From Clostridium tyrobutyricum DSM 2637 = ATCC 25755 = JCM 11008 (GTDB lineage Bacteria; Bacillota; Clostridia; Clostridiales; Clostridiaceae), in the NCBI RefSeq assembly GCF_000359585.1, contig NZ_APMH01000027.1:1-58966 (forward strand): a stretch of 58,966 nt of DNA, in the 5' to 3' direction. The translations under genes were made by a program, and so were the position numbers. How positions within the stretch are numbered: position 1 is the stretch's first letter; each line of letters begins with the position of its first letter. Shown here in pieces: positions 9,386 to 52,842 of this stretch. The notes beneath the pieces are model-generated. The model did no database searches and was not told the origin of the DNA. It saw only the letters and a list, made by a program, of their open reading frames with translations.

Positions 9386-9685
9386 AAAAAGGCAGACTTT
9401 TCGTTGGGGCGAAAAGTCTGCCGCGGTACCACCCAAATTGTTGATTATTTAATGATAGATGAATAACTTCCTTTATAGTAGTAAAAGCAAGCATAAACAA
9501 AGCGGCAGTTTTCTCTTGGAGCGAGAAAACTGCCGCATTACCATCCAAAATTATCTCTTGATTTAATAATAACGACTTTCGCCGATAAAGCCTACTTAAT
9601 TTCAACTTATAACTCAGGGATGAGTTTCAACATACAGCTACTGTGAATTTTCACCAAACTTCACTCTCTTTTTAAAGTTACCATA
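9386..9685 (-). promoter_or_regulatory. T-box leader of the MFS gene with two antiterminator/terminator modules
   Basis: On the minus strand, Stem I begins at AGAGAGTGAAG (near 9675) and has the distal GGTGAAAA loop. The specifier region GAAACTCATCC gives CUC (Leu; plus-strand 9622-9624). The first antiterminator sequence, TGGATGGTAATGCGG, is degenerate and is followed by terminator GCGGCAGTTTTCTC/GAGAAAACTGCCGC (9502-9536). About 70 bases later a canonical GGGTGGTACCGCGG (9423-9436) is followed by a second terminator, GGCAGACTTTTCG/CGAAAAGTCTGCC (9391-9422). No second Stem I lies between them. The leader resembles the leuA T-boxes in this window. Confidence 0.88.
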
Positions 9686-9736
9686 CATTTACTTATTTCC
9701 TGTCATAGTCTTTTATTATATTACAAATATGAAATT

Positions 9737-25403: not shown

Positions 25404-25592
25404 TGTTACCTTTGTAGCTCTCCACTAAAAATAATTTAAATCTAGTGACAGACCTGAATATATTCTATACAAGTCCAAAAGATAATCCCGCCAAATTATC
25501 TCCTTCGGCTGTAATTCCTTTCTTTGAATTTAATAACACCTGCCAGCTAAAATCAAATACTCTTAATTACAGCACCTCTACCCTAGGTAGGT
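25404..25592 (-). promoter_or_regulatory. Lysine riboswitch (L box)
   Basis: On the minus strand the conserved core elements appear in order: GGTAGAGGTGC, AAGAGTA, a stem-loop arm, CAGCCGAAGG, GGACTTG, GGTCTGTCACT and the closing GGAGAGCTAC. P1 is formed by GTAG (5') and CTAC (3'). Downstream, AACAC...GTGTT with inner TGCA/TGCA pairing forms a terminator-like hairpin before the lysC ribosome binding site. The rest of the 320-base gap between lysC and the aminopeptidase gene is promoter. Confidence 0.92.
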
Positions 25593-35192: not shown

Positions 35193-35385
35193 AAAAACCT
35201 CGATCCCTATAATAGGGACCGAGGTTATATCGGCGATACCACCCTGATTAATATATTCCAAGCTTTAAAATATATTCTCTCAAGTCATAACGACAGCTCT
35301 GCCGCTGTAATTTTATATTACAGAACTCCAAGGTAGGTTCAAAACATTCTTTGGAAACTTTCACCTTCCGTTTCCTCTCTAAAAA
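35193..35385 (-). promoter_or_regulatory. T-box riboswitch of proS (CCU, Pro)
   Basis: On the minus strand Stem I begins at AGAGAGGAAACGG with the distal loop GGTGAAAG. The specifier region TTGAACCTACC gives CCU for proline (plus-strand 35335-35337). The antiterminator sequence is GGGTGGTATCGCCG. The terminator is CCTCGGTCCCTA/TAGGGATCGAGG, followed by a T run at 35193-35198. The rest of the 318-base gap before the next gene is promoter and spacer. Confidence 0.93.
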
Positions 35386-35441
35386 AGATATGATTTTACT
35401 AATCCTCTTCTTAGATTTTGATTATTGAAAATTCATCTTTT

Positions 35442-43552: not shown

Positions 43553-43730
43553 CAAAAAGGCATTCTTCTCGCTATGGGGCGAAAAGAATGCCGCGGTACC
43601 ACCCAAATTATTACTCAATAATATATAACGACTTATGCCGACACAGCTTACTATAATTCAGCCTGCAATTCAAGGATGAGTTTCAATTTACAGTATTTAT
43701 GAGTTTTCACCATTCCTCACTCTCTTTAAA
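43553..43730 (-). promoter_or_regulatory. T-box riboswitch proximal to leuA (CUC, Leu)
   Basis: On the minus strand: Stem I from AGAGAGTGAGG, distal loop GGTGAAAA, specifier GAAACTCATCC giving CUC (plus-strand 43678-43680), canonical antiterminator GGGTGGTACCGCGG, and terminator GGCATTCTTTTCG with its partner followed by TTTTT. The terminator stem is intact. It is the nearer of two T-boxes before leuA. Confidence 0.93.
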
Positions 43731-43812
43731 ATATCTGAAAATTTAATTTTTCCTATCACTATTTTTAACCTATATTTATTTTTATTCCAATAATATCTTA
43801 ATTTTATGCATA

Positions 43813-43985
43813 AAAAAAGATCGTACACTATGGGGCGAAAAATCTGCCGCGGTACCACCCAAATTATTACTCAATATATATAACGACTTATGCCGGCGCA
43901 GCTTACTTTAATTCAGCCTGCAACTCAAGGGTGAGTTTCAATTTACAATGTTTATGAGTTTTCACCATTCCTCACTCTCTTTTAA
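43813..43985 (-). promoter_or_regulatory. Second, distal T-box riboswitch before leuA (CUC, Leu)
   Basis: A second complete leader, very similar to the proximal copy: AGAGAGTGAGG, GGTGAAAA, specifier GAAACTCACCC (CUC; plus-strand 43933-43935) and canonical GGGTGGTACCGCGG. Its terminator arms are eroded: AGATTTTTCG is followed by GTACGATCT, a weak stem, although TTTTTTT remains. It sits next to the operon promoter. The 618-base gap before leuA is thus promoter plus two T-boxes. Confidence 0.9.
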
Positions 43986-44041
43986 AACTAATAAATTTAC
44001 TTTTCCCTATCATAGTTTATAATTAATCTTAACTTACAAAT

Positions 44042-45801: not shown

Positions 45802-45834
45802 AAATGAGACCCCATGAATTATGGAGTCCCATTT
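45802..45834 (-). terminator. Terminator of the aromatic operon
   Basis: AAATGGGACTCCAT and ATGGGGTCTCATTT pair over 14 positions with G-U pairs, directly after the pheA stop on the minus strand. Confidence 0.75.
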
Positions 45835-46666
45835 AAAAATCAGCTTTATAATTACCTAATATTCTAAAATATTTACAGTTGTTTTTTATACCTTCCATAG
45901 CTATTCTAGTATCTTTTTTCATAATATTTCCGTTGAAATCTAAATAGAAAAAGTATTGCCATGGTTCATCTATTATAGGTCTCGATTCTATCTTAATCAA
46001 ATTTAAATTATTTTCTTTAAAATACCTAAGTATATTAAATAAAGTCCCTACTCTATGGTCTAAAGTAAATACTATACTTATCTTATCTTTATCTTCACAA
46101 TTAATCTCTTCTTTTCCTATAACTATAAATCTAGTATAATTATTTTTATTGTAATTTATGTTTTGCTTTAATATGTCAAGTCCATAAAGCTCTGCTGCTT
46201 TTTCACTTGCTATACATGCTTTGTTCTTTAGTCTAATTTCACTTATGAATTTTGCACTCCTGGCTGTGCTAAAATATGGTGTCAGTTTCCAATTATCGTG
46301 TTCTACTAAAAATTTTTTACACTGCAAAAAGGCTTGACTATGTGAATATACTTCATCTATATCATCTATTTTTGAACCTTTTATTCCAAGTAGATTATGA
46401 TTTATTTTTATGCATTTTTCACCAACTATGTAAAATCCATAATCTCTCATTAAATCATAAACATCAAGTATGCCTCCCGTAGAAGAATTTTCAATTGGAA
46501 CTACTCCATACTTTATATGCCCATCACTAAGAGAATCGAATACATCCTTAAATTCAGCACAACTTAAAGCATCTGTGTCATTTCCAAAATATTTAAGTAG
46601 AGCTTCATGACTAAAGGATGCTTCAACTCCATAAAAACCTACTTTATAATTTTTAAAACTATTCAA
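45833..46666 (-). CDS. pheA: Prephenate dehydratase
   Basis: Converts prephenate to phenylpyruvate in phenylalanine synthesis. The 277-residue monofunctional protein has no chorismate mutase domain. The catalytic domain spans about residues 8-185, with GVVPIENSSTGG, SHSQAFLQC and a TRFIVIG segment. The C-terminal ACT domain carries the regulatory ESRP motif (KIESRPI). The start is a TTG seven bases after the AGGAAGAGGG site. It is the last gene of the aroF-tyrA-aroA-aroC-pheA unit and is followed by a terminator. Confidence 0.94.
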   Translation of the reverse strand: MNSFKNYKVGFYGVEASFSHEALLKYFGNDTDALSCAEFKDVFDSLSDGHIKYGVVPIENSSTGGILDVYDLMRDYGFYIVGEKCIKINHNLLGIKGSKIDDIDEVYSHSQAFLQCKKFLVEHDNWKLTPYFSTARSAKFISEIRLKNKACIASEKAAELYGLDILKQNINYNKNNYTRFIVIGKEEINCEDKDKISIVFTLDHRVGTLFNILRYFKENNLNLIKIESRPIIDEPWQYFFYLDFNGNIMKKDTRIAMEGIKNNCKYFRILGNYKADF

Positions 46667-46691
46667 AAAAATTTCCCTCTTCCTAAAATGA

Positions 46692-47774
46692 TTAAATATT
46701 CATCATATCTAATATCCCTATAGCAGTAACAGATTCAATTACAGGAATTGCCCTAGGTACAATACATGGATCATGCCTGCCCTGTATTATAAGTTCAGAA
46801 TTCTGCATTTTTTCTACATCTACAGTTTTTTGCAGCTTTGAAATTGAAGCTGTAGGCTTTATAGAAGTTTTAAATAAAATTGGCATACCATTGGTAATTC
46901 CGCCTAAAATTCCACCATTGTTGTTAGTTTTTGTTTTTATTTCATTATTATCATCTACATAGTATTCATCATTTGCCTGTGAACCTTTCATACTACTTAT
47001 ATTGAATCCTTCACCAAATTCTACTCCTTTAACAGCAGGTATGGAAAAAAGCAAATGCGAAAGTATGCTCTCTACAGAATCAAAAAAAGGATCCCCTATA
47101 CCAGATGGAATATTTATAACTGCAGTTTCCACAATTCCACCTACAGAATCTGATTCCGATTTTGCACTTATAATGGTATCTTTCATTTTTTGACATGATT
47201 CCTTATCTATTACTGGAAATCTACTTTTAGAAAATAATCTTAAATCATCCTCCTTTATCAAAACAGGATCAAATAAACTAGCATCAGAAATATTTCCTAT
47301 ACTCTTTATATGGCTTCCTATTACTATATTTTTATCTTCTAAAATTTTCTTGCATATAGCTCCTGCAAAAACCAAAGGTGCCGTAATTCTCCCAGAAAAA
47401 TGTCCTCCACCTCTATAATCATTAAATCCATTATATTTTACAAAGCCTGTAAAATCAGCATGCCCTGGTCTGAGAAGATTTTTTGTTTTTTCATAATCCT
47501 TCGAATGAGTATCCTTATTTTTTATAATTGCACAGATAGGCGTTCCAGTAGTTTTTCCATTAAAACAACCACTTAATATTTCAAACTCATCAGCTTCTTT
47601 TCTTGGTGTAGTAAATTCACTAGTACCTGGAGCCCGTCTTCCCATCTGTTCTTTTATATAATCCAAGTCCAATTCAATTCCTGGTTTTAATCCATCAATG
47701 GTAATTCCTATAGCTTTTCCATGGGATTCTCCAAAAATAGACAACTTTATTTTATTACCAAAAATTCCACTCAT
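46692..47774 (-). CDS. aroC: Chorismate synthase
   Basis: FMN-dependent last step of the shikimate pathway, making chorismate from EPSP. The 360-residue protein carries the family signatures GESHGKAIG (near the N-terminus), GHADFTGFVKYN with DYRGGGHFSGR, and RHDPCIVPRA near the C-terminus. GGAG lies seven bases before the ATG. It lies 13 bases after aroA and 25 before pheA, so it is cotranscribed. Confidence 0.96.
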   Translation of the reverse strand: MSGIFGNKIKLSIFGESHGKAIGITIDGLKPGIELDLDYIKEQMGRRAPGTSEFTTPRKEADEFEILSGCFNGKTTGTPICAIIKNKDTHSKDYEKTKNLLRPGHADFTGFVKYNGFNDYRGGGHFSGRITAPLVFAGAICKKILEDKNIVIGSHIKSIGNISDASLFDPVLIKEDDLRLFSKSRFPVIDKESCQKMKDTIISAKSESDSVGGIVETAVINIPSGIGDPFFDSVESILSHLLFSIPAVKGVEFGEGFNISSMKGSQANDEYYVDDNNEIKTKTNNNGGILGGITNGMPILFKTSIKPTASISKLQKTVDVEKMQNSELIIQGRHDPCIVPRAIPVIESVTAIGILDMMNI

Positions 47775-47787
47775 GTTAAAACTCCAA

Positions 47788-49056
47788 TCACTCTATTATT
47801 ATATTCCCACCTAGACTCTTAAAATCTTTCCAAAAATCAGGATAAGATTTTTTTACACATTCTGCATCCTCTATTATTAAATCATCTGAACATTTTGAGG
47901 ACACCTCTGCAAGAGCCATAGCTATTCTATGATCATTAAAGCTTGAAACTCTTCCACCTTTTAATTTTTCCCTGCCGTTTATAATTAATCCATCCCTTTT
48001 TTCTTTTACATCTGCACCTATTTTATTCAATTGGGATGATATGGCTGTAAGCCTGTCGGATTCTTTTATTCTTAGTCTTTCTGCATTTATTATTTGAGTG
48101 GTTCCATTGCTTACTGAAGCTAATGCAGCTACAGCAGGTACTAAATCAGGGCATTGAGCTGCATCAAAAATTATTCCACTTGTTTTTGATGATCTGGCTA
48201 TTATATTATTTTCTTTTATTTCTATATTGGCACCCATGTTTTTAAATATATCCACTATAACCCTATCACCTTGAGAAGAGTCAATTTTAATATCACTGCA
48301 ACAAACTTCATCTCCCAATATTCCAATAGCCAGCAAAAATGCAACTTGCGAGAAGTCACCTTCTACAGTATAATTTGAATTTCTATATTTTTGATTGCCT
48401 TGAATTACAAATTTTTTATATTCAACGTTTTCTACATTTATTCCAAAATGTTTTAAAACATCTAAAGTTATATCTACATATGGTTTTGATTCCAGATTGG
48501 TAGTTATATTTATTTCGGAGTCTCCATCTAAAAGTGGAAGTTCATACATAAGTCCTGTTATAAACTGTGAACTTATATCTCCTCTCACTTCATAATTGCC
48601 GGATTTCAACTTTCCATTTATGGCAAGGGGTAATCTTCCAGAATTATTTTTATAATATATATTTTGTTCTTTAAATATATTGTAATATACATCAAGGGGT
48701 CTTTCTACAAGCTTTCCCTCCCCAGTTAAAATTACCTCTTCATTCATTGAGGCTGCCAAAGGAATTAAAAATCTTAAAGTAGACCCCGATTCACCACAAT
48801 GTATATTTTTACTCTTTAGAACCAATTTCCCAGTTCCATTTATAATAAGCCTATTTTCTTTTCTATCTATTTCAGCACCAAAATTTCTCATGGCTTCTGT
48901 TGTAACTTCTATATCGCGTGAAAAATATACATTGTCTATTATACTTTTTCCTGATGCCAATGAAGCACATATTATACTTCTATGGCATCCACTTTTAGAT
49001 GATGGAACTTTTACTTTTCCTCCCAATCTATCAGGTTTGATTTTAACAGTTTTCAT
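47788..49056 (-). CDS. aroA: 5-Enolpyruvylshikimate-3-phosphate synthase
   Basis: Transfers enolpyruvyl from PEP to shikimate 3-phosphate. The 422-residue protein has two inside-out alpha-beta domains. Family motifs are [11 protein letters not shown] near the N-terminus, the PEP-site [15 protein letters not shown] (with the G-x-S-G-S core), and the C-terminal [10 protein letters not shown] and [15 protein letters not shown] is placed eight bases before the ATG. It lies 14 bases after tyrA. Confidence 0.96.
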
Positions 49057-49070
49057 ACAAAATCCCCTTT

Positions 49071-49931
49071 TTATTTAAATCTCTTTCTAAGATTAATAGA
49101 CTTTTCAAAGACTGTTTCTAAATCCTCTACATCTTTATTTAAAACATCATTTTTAATTCTATCTAAAACTTTTTGAAATCCATTTATTGTATCAACTAAT
49201 TTGTCAGAATTAAGCATAAATAGTTCCGACCACAGTTTCGAGTTAATTAGTGCAACTCTTGTAGCATCTCGAAAACTACCTCCTACAAATAACTCAGGTT
49301 TGAATTCCTGCAAATTTGCATTCATAAGTGCTGCAGCTATAACATGTGGAAGTTGGCTTGTATAGGCAATTATTTTATCATGCTCATCTGCAGAAATATA
49401 TTCTACATTTTTACATCCAATTTTTCTGGCCATGGATGCTATAAAAGCTATACTGGATTTTTTATTCTTACTACTTGGAGTTATTATATAATTCGCATCT
49501 TTGAATATATTGGCATCAGCATAGTCTATTCCTTTGTATTCTTTACCTGCCATAGGATGACCTGATACAAATTCCATATCATCAGGTAAAACTGATTCTA
49601 CAGATTCAATCACTATTTTCTTTATCCCTGAAGTATCTGTTATAAGTACTCCTGATTTAAAATATTTTATATTCTGCTTTACAAAATCAATTGTATCTTT
49701 CGGATAAAGAGCTATTATAATAAAATCTATATCTTTTAAAAATTTTCCGGGTTTTTCATATGCACAATCTATTATATTCATCTCTATAGCTTTATCTAAG
49801 GTTGCCAAATTTCTGTCTATGCCAACTATATGTTTTGCATTCAAAGATTTTAGTGCCATGGCATAGGAACCTCCAATGAGGCCCAATCCCACAACAGCTA
49901 TTTTTAAATTATTAAAGTCACAATCCTCCAA
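49071..49931 (-). CDS. tyrA: Prephenate dehydrogenase
   Basis: NAD-dependent enzyme that makes 4-hydroxyphenylpyruvate for tyrosine. The 286-residue protein has an N-terminal Rossmann fold with [10 protein letters not shown], then the prephenate-binding GHPMAGKE and the [10 protein letters not shown] region of the helical C-terminal domain. No ACT or mutase domain is fused. The start is a TTG eight bases after GGGGGAA. It is second in the aromatic operon, 18 bases after aroF. Confidence 0.95.
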
Positions 49932-49949: not shown

Positions 49950-50981
49950 TTATACATTAGCAGTACTGTATACCTGTCTTATACCAGATTCTACTAACTT
50001 ATTCAAGTCACCCATCAAATTATCAAATCTATTGGGAGTTATAGATTGCTGACCATCACATAATGCATTTTGTGGATCATTATGAACCTCAATTATAAGT
50101 CCATCCGCTCCAACAGCTACTGCAGCTTTAGCAAGTGGTTCTACCATCCACCATAATCCAGCAGCATGACTTGGGTCAACTATTATTGGAAGATGGCTTA
50201 ATTTCTTTATTGCAGGAATTGCACTTAAATCCAAAGTATTTCTTGTATAATTTTCAAAAGTTCTTATTCCTCTTTCGCAGAGTATTACATTTTCATTACC
50301 TTCTGACATTATATATTCAGCTGACATTAAAAGCTCTTCTATGGTAGCTGAAAGCCCTCTTTTCAGAAGTATTGGCTTTTTTGTTTTTCCAAGTTCTTTC
50401 AAGAGTTCAAAGTTTTGCATATTCCTTGCTCCAACTTGTATTACATCAACATCCTCGACAAATTTTTCTATCATATTTGCTGACATTATCTCTGTAACTA
50501 TAGGAAGTCCTGTTTCCTGTCTTGCTATTTTTAATAGTTCCAGTCCTTCAGTTCTAAGTCCTTGGAAACTATAAGGTGAAGTTCTTGGCTTGAATGCACC
50601 TCCTCTTAAAAATTTAGCCCCACTCTTTTTTACATCTTTTGCTATTTCAACTATCTGCTCTTCACTTTCTACAGAACAAGGACCTGCTATAATAGCTAGC
50701 TCATTTCCCCCTACTTTTCTACCGTCTATATTCACTACGGAATTATCAGGATGAAATAGTCTATTTGCCAATTTATAATTTTGCTGAACTTTATGAACAT
50801 CTTCAACATATACATTTGCCTGAATTTTAGTTGTCTCAATCTTTGAAGTATCTCCAATTAAACCAAGTACACAATAATCTTGACCCTCTGAAACATTTAC
50901 CTGAACATTCTCTTTTTCCAATCTGTGTTTCAATACCAATATTTCCTCTTTAGGTGCATGGGGCTTCATAATTATTACCAT
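49950..50981 (-). CDS. aroF: DAHP synthase (3-deoxy-7-phosphoheptulonate synthase), type I-beta
   Basis: First step of aromatic synthesis, condensing PEP and erythrose 4-phosphate. The product has 343 residues. An N-terminal ferredoxin-like regulatory domain of about 70 residues (MKPHAPKEEILVLKHRLE) precedes the catalytic TIM barrel with AGPCSVES, GGAFKPRTSPYSFQG, LLKRGLSAT and VDPSHAAG. The I-beta type is often feedback-inhibited by aromatic products. The ATG at 50981 follows GGAGAG. It begins the operon aroF-tyrA-aroA-aroC-pheA, downstream of the leader peptide and terminator. The shikimate genes aroB, aroD, aroE and aroK are not in the window. Confidence 0.96.
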   Translation of the reverse strand: MVIIMKPHAPKEEILVLKHRLEKENVQVNVSEGQDYCVLGLIGDTSKIETTKIQANVYVEDVHKVQQNYKLANRLFHPDNSVVNIDGRKVGGNELAIIAGPCSVESEEQIVEIAKDVKKSGAKFLRGGAFKPRTSPYSFQGLRTEGLELLKIARQETGLPIVTEIMSANMIEKFVEDVDVIQVGARNMQNFELLKELGKTKKPILLKRGLSATIEELLMSAEYIMSEGNENVILCERGIRTFENYTRNTLDLSAIPAIKKLSHLPIIVDPSHAAGLWWMVEPLAKAAVAVGADGLIIEVHNDPQNALCDGQQSITPNRFDNLMGDLNKLVESGIRQVYSTANV

Positions 50982-51053
50982 AGTTATACTCTCCAATCTT
51001 AATTTTAAATTTGTAACTTCACTTTCATAAGGATTTTCTTAATTTTAATATAT

Positions 51054-51083
51054 AAAAAAAACAGGGTCTCTAATGAGCCCTGT
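51054..51083 (-). terminator. Attenuator terminator before aroF
   Basis: On the minus strand AACAGGG and CCCTGTT form a 7-bp GC-rich stem with an 11-base loop (CTCATTAGAGA), followed by TTTTTTTT. It lies between the aromatic leader peptide and aroF, not after a full gene. The loop segment CTCATTAGA (51069-51077) is exactly complementary to TCTAATGAG in the leader (51152-51160). Confidence 0.88.
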
Positions 51084-51126
51084 TAATTAAAATACACTGT
51101 CACCGTTAAAATATGCATAATTTATA

Positions 51127-51288
51127 TCATGTATTTATAATTATTCTTTTACTCATTAGAAATGAACCAAATATTTTTTTGCAAAACAAATAACCAGCAC
51201 TAAAGTAATAGTAGCCCCAGCTAAAGCTAAATTCAAAATAGAATTTTTTGTTTAGTTTTTCGATTCCCTTTCCAATGATATTTTTCAT
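51127..51288 (-). CDS. Aromatic leader peptide (53 residues) of the aroF operon
   Basis: A short frame with TTGGAGG eight to nine bases before an ATG and a strong promoter just upstream. It begins MKNIIGKGIEKLNKK. Residues 16-35 read FYFEFSFSWGYYYFSAGYLF: six Phe, five Tyr and one Trp, or 12 aromatic residues in 20. After CKKIFGSFLMSKR it ends at TGA. It is not a known gene. Its position before a terminator and aroF, and its codon content, match amino acid-responsive leader peptides such as those of pheA or trp. A small membrane protein is the alternative, but the clustering and the RNA pairing elements argue against it. Confidence 0.82.
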   Translation of the reverse strand: MKNIIGKGIEKLNKKFYFEFSFSWGYYYFSAGYLFCKKIFGSFLMSKRIIINT

Positions 51289-51328
51289 AATATATAATCC
51301 TCCAAAATATTAACTTCTGATGTGAATA

Positions 51329-51356
51329 ATTATATCAGTTTTAAAGTTTATGTCAA
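51329..51356 (-). promoter_or_regulatory. Promoter of the aromatic leader and operon
   Basis: Perfect TTGACA and TATAAT boxes with a 16-base spacer on the minus strand, about 40 bases before the leader peptide start. It lies just after the modD stop. Confidence 0.88.
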
Positions 51357-51376: not shown

Positions 51377-52222
51377 TTAATGTAATGGTTTTATTTTACA
51401 TCCTATATCTATAGGTTTTGTATAATAAACAGAACTTGTTACAATTCCATTAACCCCTGTTTTTGCATACTTGGCTGCATTATTTTCATTTATTCCTCCA
51501 GCTGCAAGTACAACTATATCAGGGTTTATATTTCTTAAAATATTTACATTTGATATTAAATCTTCAGGTGAAAGTTTATCAAACTGTATTCCATCTATAT
51601 TGTTTTTGCAAAGTTTTACAGCATCATCTATATTTTCTACTTCTACTAAAATTTTTTTCTCGCATACTTTATTCTTAAACCTTTCAATATTCTTAATAAA
51701 TTCCTTGATTCCACCTAAAAAATCCAAGTGTTGTTTAAAAACCAATATAGTTTCGGATAGTCCTAATCTATGAGGAAATACACCTCCAGCTATAACGGCC
51801 TTGGTAGACAACTCTCTAGTTCCTGGCATACTTTTTCTTGTAGTAATTACAGTTATATCAGGATTTACACTTGATACCTCATCTATTATTCTCCTTGTTT
51901 TAGTGGCAATTCCTGAGAAATTATCAATAATATTTTGACACACTTTCCATGCAATATGCAGATTCTCAACGTCTCCCATTCCTTCAAGTAAAATATCCCC
52001 TTTTTTAACTTGAGTTCCAGAAGTTTTTGAATTAATTACATCTATATTTAATTTTCTAAATATTCTGGCTGCCTCTTCTGCACCACATAATATTGCATCT
52101 TCTCTAGTAAAAAATTTTATATTTCCCCTAATACCTTTAATCTCTAAAACTAAACTTGTCAAATCTATATAAGGTACATCTTCCTTAATAAACTTATCCA
52201 ATGTTTCATCTGAAATATACAT
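51377..52222 (-). CDS. modD: ModD family protein (nicotinate phosphoribosyltransferase-like)
   Basis: A 281-residue protein of the QPRTase fold, closest to ModD, which is found with molybdenum transport genes. The opening ISDETLDKFIKEDVPYIDLTS, the ATKTRRI segment, the TTRKSMPGTRELS loop and the C-terminal AAGGINENNAA helix fit this group; ordinary NadC is somewhat different. Function of ModD is not firmly known, and no mod genes are adjacent here. GGAGG lies before the ATG. Confidence 0.8.
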   Translation of the reverse strand: MYISDETLDKFIKEDVPYIDLTSLVLEIKGIRGNIKFFTREDAILCGAEEAARIFRKLNIDVINSKTSGTQVKKGDILLEGMGDVENLHIAWKVCQNIIDNFSGIATKTRRIIDEVSSVNPDITVITTRKSMPGTRELSTKAVIAGGVFPHRLGLSETILVFKQHLDFLGGIKEFIKNIERFKNKVCEKKILVEVENIDDAVKLCKNNIDGIQFDKLSPEDLISNVNILRNINPDIVVLAAGGINENNAAKYAKTGVNGIVTSSVYYTKPIDIGCKIKPLH

Positions 52223-52343: not shown

Positions 52344-52385
52344 AAAATGAGATACTATCAAATTAACCTGATAGTATCTCATTTT
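52344..52385 (-). terminator. Terminator of mscL
   Basis: AAAATGAGATACTATCA and TGATAGTATCTCATTTT form a perfect 17-bp stem around an 8-base loop, directly at the mscL stop codon. Confidence 0.92.
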
Positions 52386-52818
52386 AATCCAATTTTGAAG
52401 TACAATGTGGACATCTAGTTGCTTCTAATGGTATTTCACTTAAGCAATATTTACATTTCTTAGTATTGCTTGCCTCTTCCTCTTCTTTTCTACTTGTAAA
52501 CCTAGTTATCTGCCTGATAACTATAAATATAGAAAAAGATATTATTAAAAAATCTATTATATTGTTTATAAATACACCATAATTCAATGTAGGAACCCCT
52601 GCTTTTTTAGCTTCGGCTATAGTATCAAAATGGCCATTTCCAAGGGTAATAAATAGATTGGAAAAGTCTACTTTTCCAATAAGCAAACCAACCAATGGCA
52701 TTATAATATCACTTACAAGGGAAGAAACTATTTTACCAAATGCTCCACCAATTACTACACCTACTGCTAAATCTACTATGTTTCCTTTCATTGCAAATTT
52801 CCTGAATTCTTTTAACAT
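52384..52818 (-). CDS. mscL: Large-conductance mechanosensitive channel
   Basis: Homopentameric pore that opens under membrane tension and releases solutes on osmotic downshock. The 144-residue protein has the N-terminal amphipathic segment [13 protein letters not shown]1 with [17 protein letters not shown], the periplasmic loop and TM2. Its C-terminus ends in a zinc-ribbon-like [18 protein letters not shown] tail seen in many Firmicute MscL. The ATG at 52818 follows AGGTG. It is followed by a strong terminator. Confidence 0.95.
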
Positions 52819-52842
52819 AACCAACTACACCTCATTTAATCT

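Follow-up and report, generated by a model that had tools for sequence, protein, structure and literature searches.

A putative ribosome-mediated attenuator with a hairpin inside its Phe, Tyr and Trp codons precedes aromatic amino acid genes in Clostridium tyrobutyricum and related Clostridia

The trp-type attenuators of Escherichia coli, pheL among them, belong to the closest described relatives of the element reported here: a leader on the minus strand ahead of the aroF-tyrA-aroA-aroC-pheA operon of Clostridium tyrobutyricum, in contig NZ_APMH01000027.1 (hereafter the window, meaning the whole stretch of 58,966 nucleotides that was analyzed). In the E. coli model, as outlined in the accessible part of PMC1183508, the control codons lie within segment 1 of the leader RNA, and a ribosome stalled on them masks this segment. 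Judged by that outline, the clostridial leader shares with the E. coli type a leader open reading frame (ORF) with control codons for the end products, the alternative pairings 1:2, 2:3 and 3:4, an intrinsic terminator and, probably, a synchronizing pause. It differs in that segment 1 lies at codons 4-8, ahead of the control codons (16-35 in the window), in that segment 2 lies inside the ORF and the putative pause hairpin is separate and buried in the control codons, and in that one 20-codon cluster would read three amino acids in the C. tyrobutyricum leader. The terminator is overlapped by a mutually exclusive antiterminator, as in ribosome-mediated attenuators generally; by its ORF, control codons and terminator/antiterminator, the leader appears to fit this general class while departing from the textbook trp layout. 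It probably adjusts expression of the five-gene operon to the amounts of charged tRNA-Phe, tRNA-Tyr and tRNA-Trp available.

Ribosome-mediated amino acid attenuation has Gram-positive precedents in the ilv leaders of Listeria (Rli60, PMC5864092) and Staphylococcus aureus (PMC5794164), which respond to branched-chain amino acids; the accessible portions of both accounts mention neither a pause hairpin in the control codons nor a queue. Within the same phylum, leader peptides in place of T-boxes are described for predicted his attenuators in Firmicutes (PMC9413887) and for hisS/hisZ leaders of bacilli (PMC2965389); as excerpted, these differ in carrying runs of His codons and, in the his operon cases, in having the attenuator structure downstream of the peptide. 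A candidate upstream ORF attenuator, uORFC-13-1, also stands before aroF and beside a terminator, and contains one Phe codon or more; compared by description only, it differs in being reported from Acholeplasma and environmental DNA alone, with 24 representatives in the section available (PMC8632094). For the pause, the likeness is to the NusG-dependent hairpin pauses of Bacillus subtilis trp and tlrB, of which the tlrB pause gives time to translate the leader peptide; unlike those, as far as the abridged accounts go, the predicted clostridial signal is encoded within the codons that would sense amino acids (PMC12288461, PMC6851288). Searches confined to the open-licence part of PubMed Central, covering listings, abstract openings and text excerpts, turned up no description of the leader attenuator. 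Bacillota, as a phylum, have been classed among bacteria with runaway transcription, in which polymerase moves ahead of the ribosomes, the accessible text not naming Clostridia (PMC13323073); ribosome-mediated attenuation should therefore be hard in them. If our reading is true, this widespread leader family would show one answer, a polymerase pause placed within the very codons that do the sensing, and would be a way to run such attenuation where polymerase normally outruns ribosomes. A single sequence would then carry several codes at once: control codons, pause hairpin and switch strands.

An earlier note, made from the letters of this stretch, had claimed a perfect promoter, a strong ribosome site, a 53-codon frame rich in aromatic residues, an intrinsic terminator and the gene order downstream, and each of these is borne out (Table 1). 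Twelve of the 20 residues 16-35 are aromatic (F16, Y17, F18, F20, F22, W24, Y26, Y27, Y28, F29, Y33 and F35), and Pfam identifies all five downstream genes, as 3-deoxy-D-arabino-heptulosonate 7-phosphate (DAHP) synthase, prephenate dehydrogenase, prephenate dehydratase, 5-enolpyruvylshikimate-3-phosphate synthase and chorismate synthase. Folding gives the terminator hairpin -13.4 kcal/mol, although a terminator scanner reported none at this leader, probably because the stem carries a bulged A.

The leader is not confined to C. tyrobutyricum. Of 59 relatives searched, 25 carry homologues of the peptide (E<1e-3, own genome counted), and profile searches placed the leader in 123 of 206 genomes of its own family (E<=0.01) and in 47 of 391 evenly drawn genomes of the class (E<=0.001), 13 of these 47 belonging to the own family, own genome again counted. 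A collection of named genomes added 36 leader loci; carriers include C. algifaecis, C. ljungdahlii, C. ragsdalei, C. carboxidivorans, C. drakei and C. magnum as well as Marinisporobacter, Anoxynatronum and Vulcanibacillus modesticaldus. C. ljungdahlii is used in gas fermentation. Comparisons were made on a first set, in which 151 loci, after removal of five without a leader by profile and of repeats, gave 117 distinct leaders (one of them, L026, later dropped as having no start codon by the rule used), and on a class set of 35 leaders, two of them in the own family, which excludes from the 47 genomes 10 already represented own-family loci, L198 and G412. The genomes are kin to one another, and counts are therefore not of independent events.

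The genes behind the leader are the strongest sign of its target. The first recognized downstream gene in the 117 leaders, called by blast against a small reference gene set without aroB and aroE, is aroF in 99, a shikimate kinase type in 7 (chorismate mutase-fused forms included), aroA in 5, a second DAHP synthase type in 2 and AroQ in 1. Three had no match; one of them (L142) is aroB by a later reading, and the other two have less than 300 nucleotides of DNA left. Six leaders read by eye are followed by aroB in four (L131, L142, L096, L149), by aroE in L068b and by a further aroF in L079b. In the class set, aroF comes first in 31 of 35, tyrA and pheA in one each and none in two. Pfam, applied by example, backs aroF, shikimate kinase, DHquinase II, the second DAHP synthase, chorismate mutase-shikimate kinase, aroB and aroE, and it is the presence of leader copies ahead of these seven aromatic gene kinds that would best indicate what the leader controls. 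Lack of conservation of the leader frame or of its aromatic codons in close relatives would, by the earlier note, have refuted its proposal; both, and the pairings as well, are conserved in many Clostridia before aromatic genes. The C. magnum genome carries the leader four times (L060, L064, L067, L074), ahead of aroF, of shikimate kinase types and of a second DAHP synthase, and this looks like a small regulon that arose by copying one attenuator.

Across the first set, the best 20-codon stretch holds a median of 12 aromatic codons. Changed aromatic codons, compared pairwise, stay aromatic in 475 of 684 cases before the hairpin described below, in 456 of 574 within it and in 382 of 779 after it; by our own reckoning, about 2/9 would be expected for random single changes. 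Trp is absent from 8 of 116 leaders and is therefore not essential to the design. The core Trp is replaced by Phe, Met or Leu in L101, L103, L107 and L111 of one lineage (g24) and in L023, L078, L109, L127, L136 and L150. Some class-set leaders have Gln, Leu, Pro or His at this place. Where Trp is replaced, the leader may sense a different set of amino acids. A ribosome site of the form GGAGG, AGGAG, GAGG or GGAG precedes 92 of 116 leaders and a weaker one 13, with none by the rule used in 11.

The alternative pairing of three segments, proposed in the earlier note, goes beyond chance in both of its helices. Segment 2, an AATGAG-like motif, was located in 106 of 116 leaders; it lies in frame 0 in 59 and in frame 2 in 46, and is absent from 10. 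As it occurs in two reading frames, it is conserved as RNA and not as peptide. The 2:3 pairing, between the end of the ORF and the 5' arm and loop of the terminator, scores 16.7 on average compared with 12.1 for shuffled sequences, and 69 of 116 leaders pass p<0.05 when each is tested by itself; minimum free energy (MFE) folds made without the 3' arm of the terminator hold the 2:3 helix, with at least 5 pairs, in 94 of 116. The antiterminator is also longer than had been stated, as a second helix joins 51143-51130 to 51096-51084 in the window. The 1:2 pairing, whose segment 1 keeps a fixed register of +10 to +21 from the start codon, reaches p<0.05 individually in 40 of 106 leaders. Covariation, which the note had named as a check, is found here: among 99 distinct leaders the 1:2 register has 0.757 of its cells paired, compared with 0.34-0.60 (at most 0.597) in nine slid registers and 0.721 +- 0.007 in partner shuffles, none of 500 of which reach the observed value, and compensatory changes are seen in L008 (TCATCGGAA/TTCTGATGA), L071 (TCATTGGAAAG/CTTTCCAATGA) and L109 (ATCATGAAA/TTTCATGAT). 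A script recovered the terminator in 116 of 117 first-set leaders, the remaining one (L011) showing a terminator by eye, and in 34 of 35 of the class set, one merely at -1.0 kcal/mol. Two g24 leaders, L017 and L107, have tandem terminators, each with a CATTAT tip that can pair with ATAATG; because the script took the second of the two, the 2:3 pairing of g24 leaders is understated.

What the earlier note did not contain is a hairpin inside the aromatic codons. It reads 5' CUGG-G-GCU, a loop of Phe and Tyr codons, and AGC-G-CUGG 3', around Trp24-Gly25 and Ser30-Ala31-Gly32, with a near-invariant G.G mismatch and tandem G.U pairs. The codons of its core are frozen: AGC in 69 of 69 for Ser, GGC in 105 of 108 for Gly, AGC in 109 of 112 for Ser and GCT in 99 of 102 for Ala, compared with a usage in seven genes of the window of 13 AGC vs 50 AGT and 13 GGC vs 121 GGA. 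We attribute this to the hairpin that these codons form. Its mean MFE is -9.2 kcal/mol vs -3.2 kcal/mol in resamples of synonymous codons, with z < -1.5 in 109 of 116 leaders. In 127 distinct leaders, 0.866 of the outer pairs form, compared with at most 0.611 when slid and 0.852 in partner shuffles. Distant lineages of the class set keep the stem pairs in variant forms: CAG AGC...AGC TTT in L218 (with near forms in L220, L222 and L225), CCA GGC...AGC ACT GGC in L212, L213 and L215, TTG GGC...AGC GCA in L197, like L109 of the first set, and GGT...AAC in L199 and L219, like L018. As the pairs stay while the peptide turns from WG to QS, PG or LG, the peptide changes would follow the RNA. The loop varies by one whole codon, its spacing being 15 nucleotides in 47 leaders and 18 in 52. 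One leader (L193) could not be placed and was left out of the hairpin count; the core listing of the class set is not clean, the pattern having misplaced the core in a few leaders (e.g. L200, L203, L221), so that its mean core energy is rough. We had suspected peptide-level arrest from the conserved W-G and S-A-G and dropped it, as the synonymous sites are frozen and the hairpin accounts for them; a UGGN contact with the tRNA 3' end was likewise dropped because Ser replaces the Gly codon concerned in 19 of 116 leaders.

From these sequences, the internal hairpin is probably a pause signal for RNA polymerase. A pyrimidine-G step lies exactly 11 nucleotides below it in 0.68 of 106 leaders and in 0.67 of 33 class-set leaders, while every other offset from 1 to 26 gives at most 0.30. 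For E. coli hisL, dependence of a pause on its hairpin and on G+1 has been shown (PMC9291695). NusG-dependent hairpin pauses of B. subtilis add a TTNTTT motif at -11 to -6, according to the available part of PMC12288461, and this motif, with at most one mismatch, occurs there in 93 of 106 and 29 of 35 leaders, in a region that is T-rich owing to its codons; the class-set anchors for the outer-pair, pyrimidine-G and TTNTTT counts may hold a few of the misplacements mentioned. In the window, the hairpin core is followed directly by an exact TTATTT and then by the U and G of the predicted step. The NusG of C. tyrobutyricum has N-T at the positions that are N81 T82 in the nearest solved NusG chain (8ehq_G) and S-V in 2jvv_A, which we take to be E. 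coli NusG, the species of the compared chains being our assumption. Residues at the positions N81 T82 are said to read the TTNTTT motif (PMC12288461, in part). A strongly conserved A run (AAA AAA, 51180-51174 in the window) follows the predicted pause and stands in the same place in most leaders (offsets 14-19).

How the switch might respond to ribosomes was modeled by constrained folding, with ribosome footprints held unpaired and the 3' arm of the terminator not yet made. In the 86 usable leaders, the mean probability P of 1:2 is 0.35 and that of 2:3 is 0.31 with no ribosome, 1:2 exceeding 0.5 in 30 of them. A queue with its leading ribosome at the middle aromatic codon raises mean P(2:3) to 0.83, above 0.5 in 72 of 86, and a ribosome at the stop codon lowers it to 0.12, above 0.5 in 10 of 86. 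The window alone gives P(1:2) 0.98 with no ribosome and P(2:3) near 1 with a ribosome covering segment 1, and when a single ribosome has its A site anywhere in codons 16-36, mostly 1:2 forms, in agreement with the earlier caveat that this geometry may depend on queuing. In the model, the sign of control is therefore right on average at the stop codon, and under starvation once trailing ribosomes cover segment 1. As the control codons come only after segment 1, a lone stalled ribosome need not mask it.

These elements suggest the following mechanism. RNA polymerase would make segment 1 and the control codons and then be held by the internal hairpin with its RNA 3' end at about 51183, in codon 36; by an estimate from usual footprints, a ribosome meeting it there would have its A site near codon 26, inside the cluster. 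A ribosome would load and read toward the hairpin and, given charged aromatic tRNAs, would melt it, free the polymerase and follow close behind. As segments 3 and 4 emerge, this ribosome would be sitting over segment 2 and the surroundings of the stop codon, and the terminator would form and end transcription. With Phe, Tyr or Trp scarce, the ribosome would stall among codons 16-35, later ribosomes would queue or initiate behind it and mask segment 1, and segment 2 would be left free for segment 3, allowing read-through. With no ribosome at all, 1:2 pairing would keep the C. tyrobutyricum operon off. Comparison of leaders bears out the aromatic codons, 1:2, 2:3, the terminator, the internal hairpin, the spaced pyrimidine-G step and the linkage to aromatic genes; translation, pausing, release of the pause by the ribosome, queuing and the starvation response are what we infer from them.

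Several observations weigh against this reading or parts of it. The 1:2 helix of the proposed switch is weak in one large genus (g17), where only 2 of 31 leaders reach p<0.05. Covariation of the hairpin in the first set does not exceed partner shuffles (0.878 vs 0.879), because the hairpin hardly varies there; the enlarged set exceeds its shuffles only modestly, with 8 of 500 reaching the observed value, and so does the class set alone (0.775 vs 0.740 shuffled, 13 of 500). Codon changes favor the third position only modestly, and in every region of the leader there are more nonsynonymous than synonymous ones. At the pause, TTNTTT is equally frequent in the hairpin loop and so does not discriminate by itself, and it is partly a by-product of T-rich Phe and Tyr codons; elemental pauses favor G-10, Y-1 and G+1, and the predicted site has no G-10, which leaves the case for the pause to the hairpin spacing and the pyrimidine-G step. 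The folding used a favorable choice, the 86 of 116 leaders with both motifs (30 being unusable), and a footprint assumed to reach 13 nucleotides upstream of the P site and 12 past it, other values of which would alter the results. With no ribosome, 28 of the 86 leaders are already predicted to form 2:3. Mean P(2:3) is 0.30 when one ribosome stands at the middle aromatic codon, and in the window 2:3 is favored once again by a ribosome that has just left the cluster (A site 38-41). When 11 leaders were folded for successive ribosome positions, codon by codon, some did not switch as expected: L112 and L136 hardly form 2:3 whatever the state, L005 and L096 form it in nearly every state, and L082 forms it only with a ribosome near the stop codon, which is the wrong sign.

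Which ribosome does the masking is the point on which readings of the same attenuator divide. Our tentative proposal is a traffic-sensing attenuator that needs a queue: segment 1 would be masked by a ribosome that trails the starved one or initiates behind it, and not by the starved one itself, and the synonymously written pause hairpin would hold polymerase until half of the control codons have been read. It is quite possible instead that a single stalled ribosome suffices by sterically hindering 1:2, as segments 1 and 2 flank it, with no queue. A ribosome stalled at the first aromatic codon (median position 13) abuts segment 1, and one ribosome there gives mean P(2:3) 0.48 vs 0.31 with none; most control codons, including the only Trp codon of the window, lie further down, and at the middle aromatic codon the lone ribosome does no better than none. 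The latter is weak evidence in a model without a steric penalty, and if pairing around the ribosome is sterically barred, a lone ribosome may suffice. The internal hairpin could also act on the ribosome, as a roadblock prolonging stalls at aromatic codons, or bind a protein rather than pause polymerase, which we think somewhat unlikely. Its position within the control codons would suit such a role, and the near-invariant G.G mismatch and tandem G.U pairs seem beyond the needs of a plain pause hairpin; however, the pyrimidine-G step at exactly 11 nucleotides and the conserved non-aromatic TGC codon there fit a pause and not a roadblock, and some distant lineages have an A-U pair in place of the mismatch (L218).

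Readings that dispense with the attenuator fare worse. A riboswitch or protein-binding leader with an incidental ORF would explain why so much of the conservation is at the RNA level and why changes in the N-terminal codons are not concentrated at third positions. The open frame itself is no evidence against it, since the leader collection kept open frames only. It is nevertheless very unlikely, as most leaders have a ribosome site, aromatic codons are kept far above chance and the loop of the hairpin changes by whole codons; Rfam has no match to the leader region of the window, even at E<=1. A T-box (RF00230) was considered along with riboswitches and set aside, as no covariance match at the leader reached either the gathering cut-off or E<=1. 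A functional small hydrophobic protein, to which the conserved peptide core (approximately FSWGYFYFSAGYFFxKK) might point, is more improbable still: the synonymous sites of the core are frozen, both ends of the peptide track RNA pairing, and distant lineages turn WG into QS, QG, PG or LG while keeping the hairpin. The window peptide has no Pfam match at E<=0.001, and 15 leader peptides searched at E<=1 gave a single weak match in NCBIfam and another in Pfam, each involving just one of the peptides.

Table 1. Coordinates of the leader and its operon in the window.
Feature	Position	Strand	Basis
Sigma-A type promoter, TTGACA (51356)/16 nucleotides/TATAAT (ends 51329), TG before -10	51329-51356	-	12/12 matches
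Ribosome binding site TGGAGG, ATG 10 nucleotides further on	51299-51304	-	sequence
Leader ORF, 53 codons + stop	51127-51288 (ATG 51288; TGA 51129-51127)	-	ORF, homologues
Segment 1 (codons 4-7/8), partner of segment 2, putative anti-antiterminator	51267-51278; TCATTGGAAA = 51278-51269	-	fixed register, compensatory changes
Pause-type hairpin within control codons	51191-51223; core arms 51220-51213 + 51201-51194, central G.G mismatch	-	folding, comparison
Predicted RNA polymerase pause	51182-51193; TTATTT 51193-51188 (-11 to -6), RNA 3' end U 51183, G+1 51182	-	
Segment 2, TTTCTAATGAGT, within ORF close to its end	51151-51162	-	pairing tests
Antiterminator second part, 5' strand TAATTATAAATACA, ends at stop codon	51130-51143	-	folding
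Antiterminator second part, 3' strand TGTATTTTAATTA	51084-51096	-	folding
Segment 3, CTCATTAGA, tip of terminator 5' arm + loop, pairs with segment 2	51069-51077	-	folding
Intrinsic terminator, hairpin 51084-51060 + U run	51054-51084	-	sequence, folding
aroF (DAHP synthase), first gene of operon	49950-50981	-	Pfam
tyrA, aroA, aroC, pheA	45833-49931	-	Pfam

For aroF, we prefer the ATG at 50981 over the listed TTG at 50996 as start codon. The leader is placed between aroF and a quinolinate phosphoribosyltransferase-like gene (51377-52222), upstream of which lies an MscL channel gene (52384-52824, minus strand). T-boxes are common elsewhere in the C. tyrobutyricum genome, with 27 places above the cut-off, and the leader would add a different type of control for aromatic synthesis to this T-box-rich background. 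A tandem pair of T-boxes (43572-43768 and 43828-44022, minus strand) stands in the window ahead of a LeuA-like gene with HMGL and LeuA dimer domains; the listed TTG start of this gene (43618) falls within the nearer T-box, and the true start is probably a later ATG. The window also holds, at 35211-35421, 9402-9715 and 25407-25588 on the minus strand, two further T-boxes and one lysine riboswitch.
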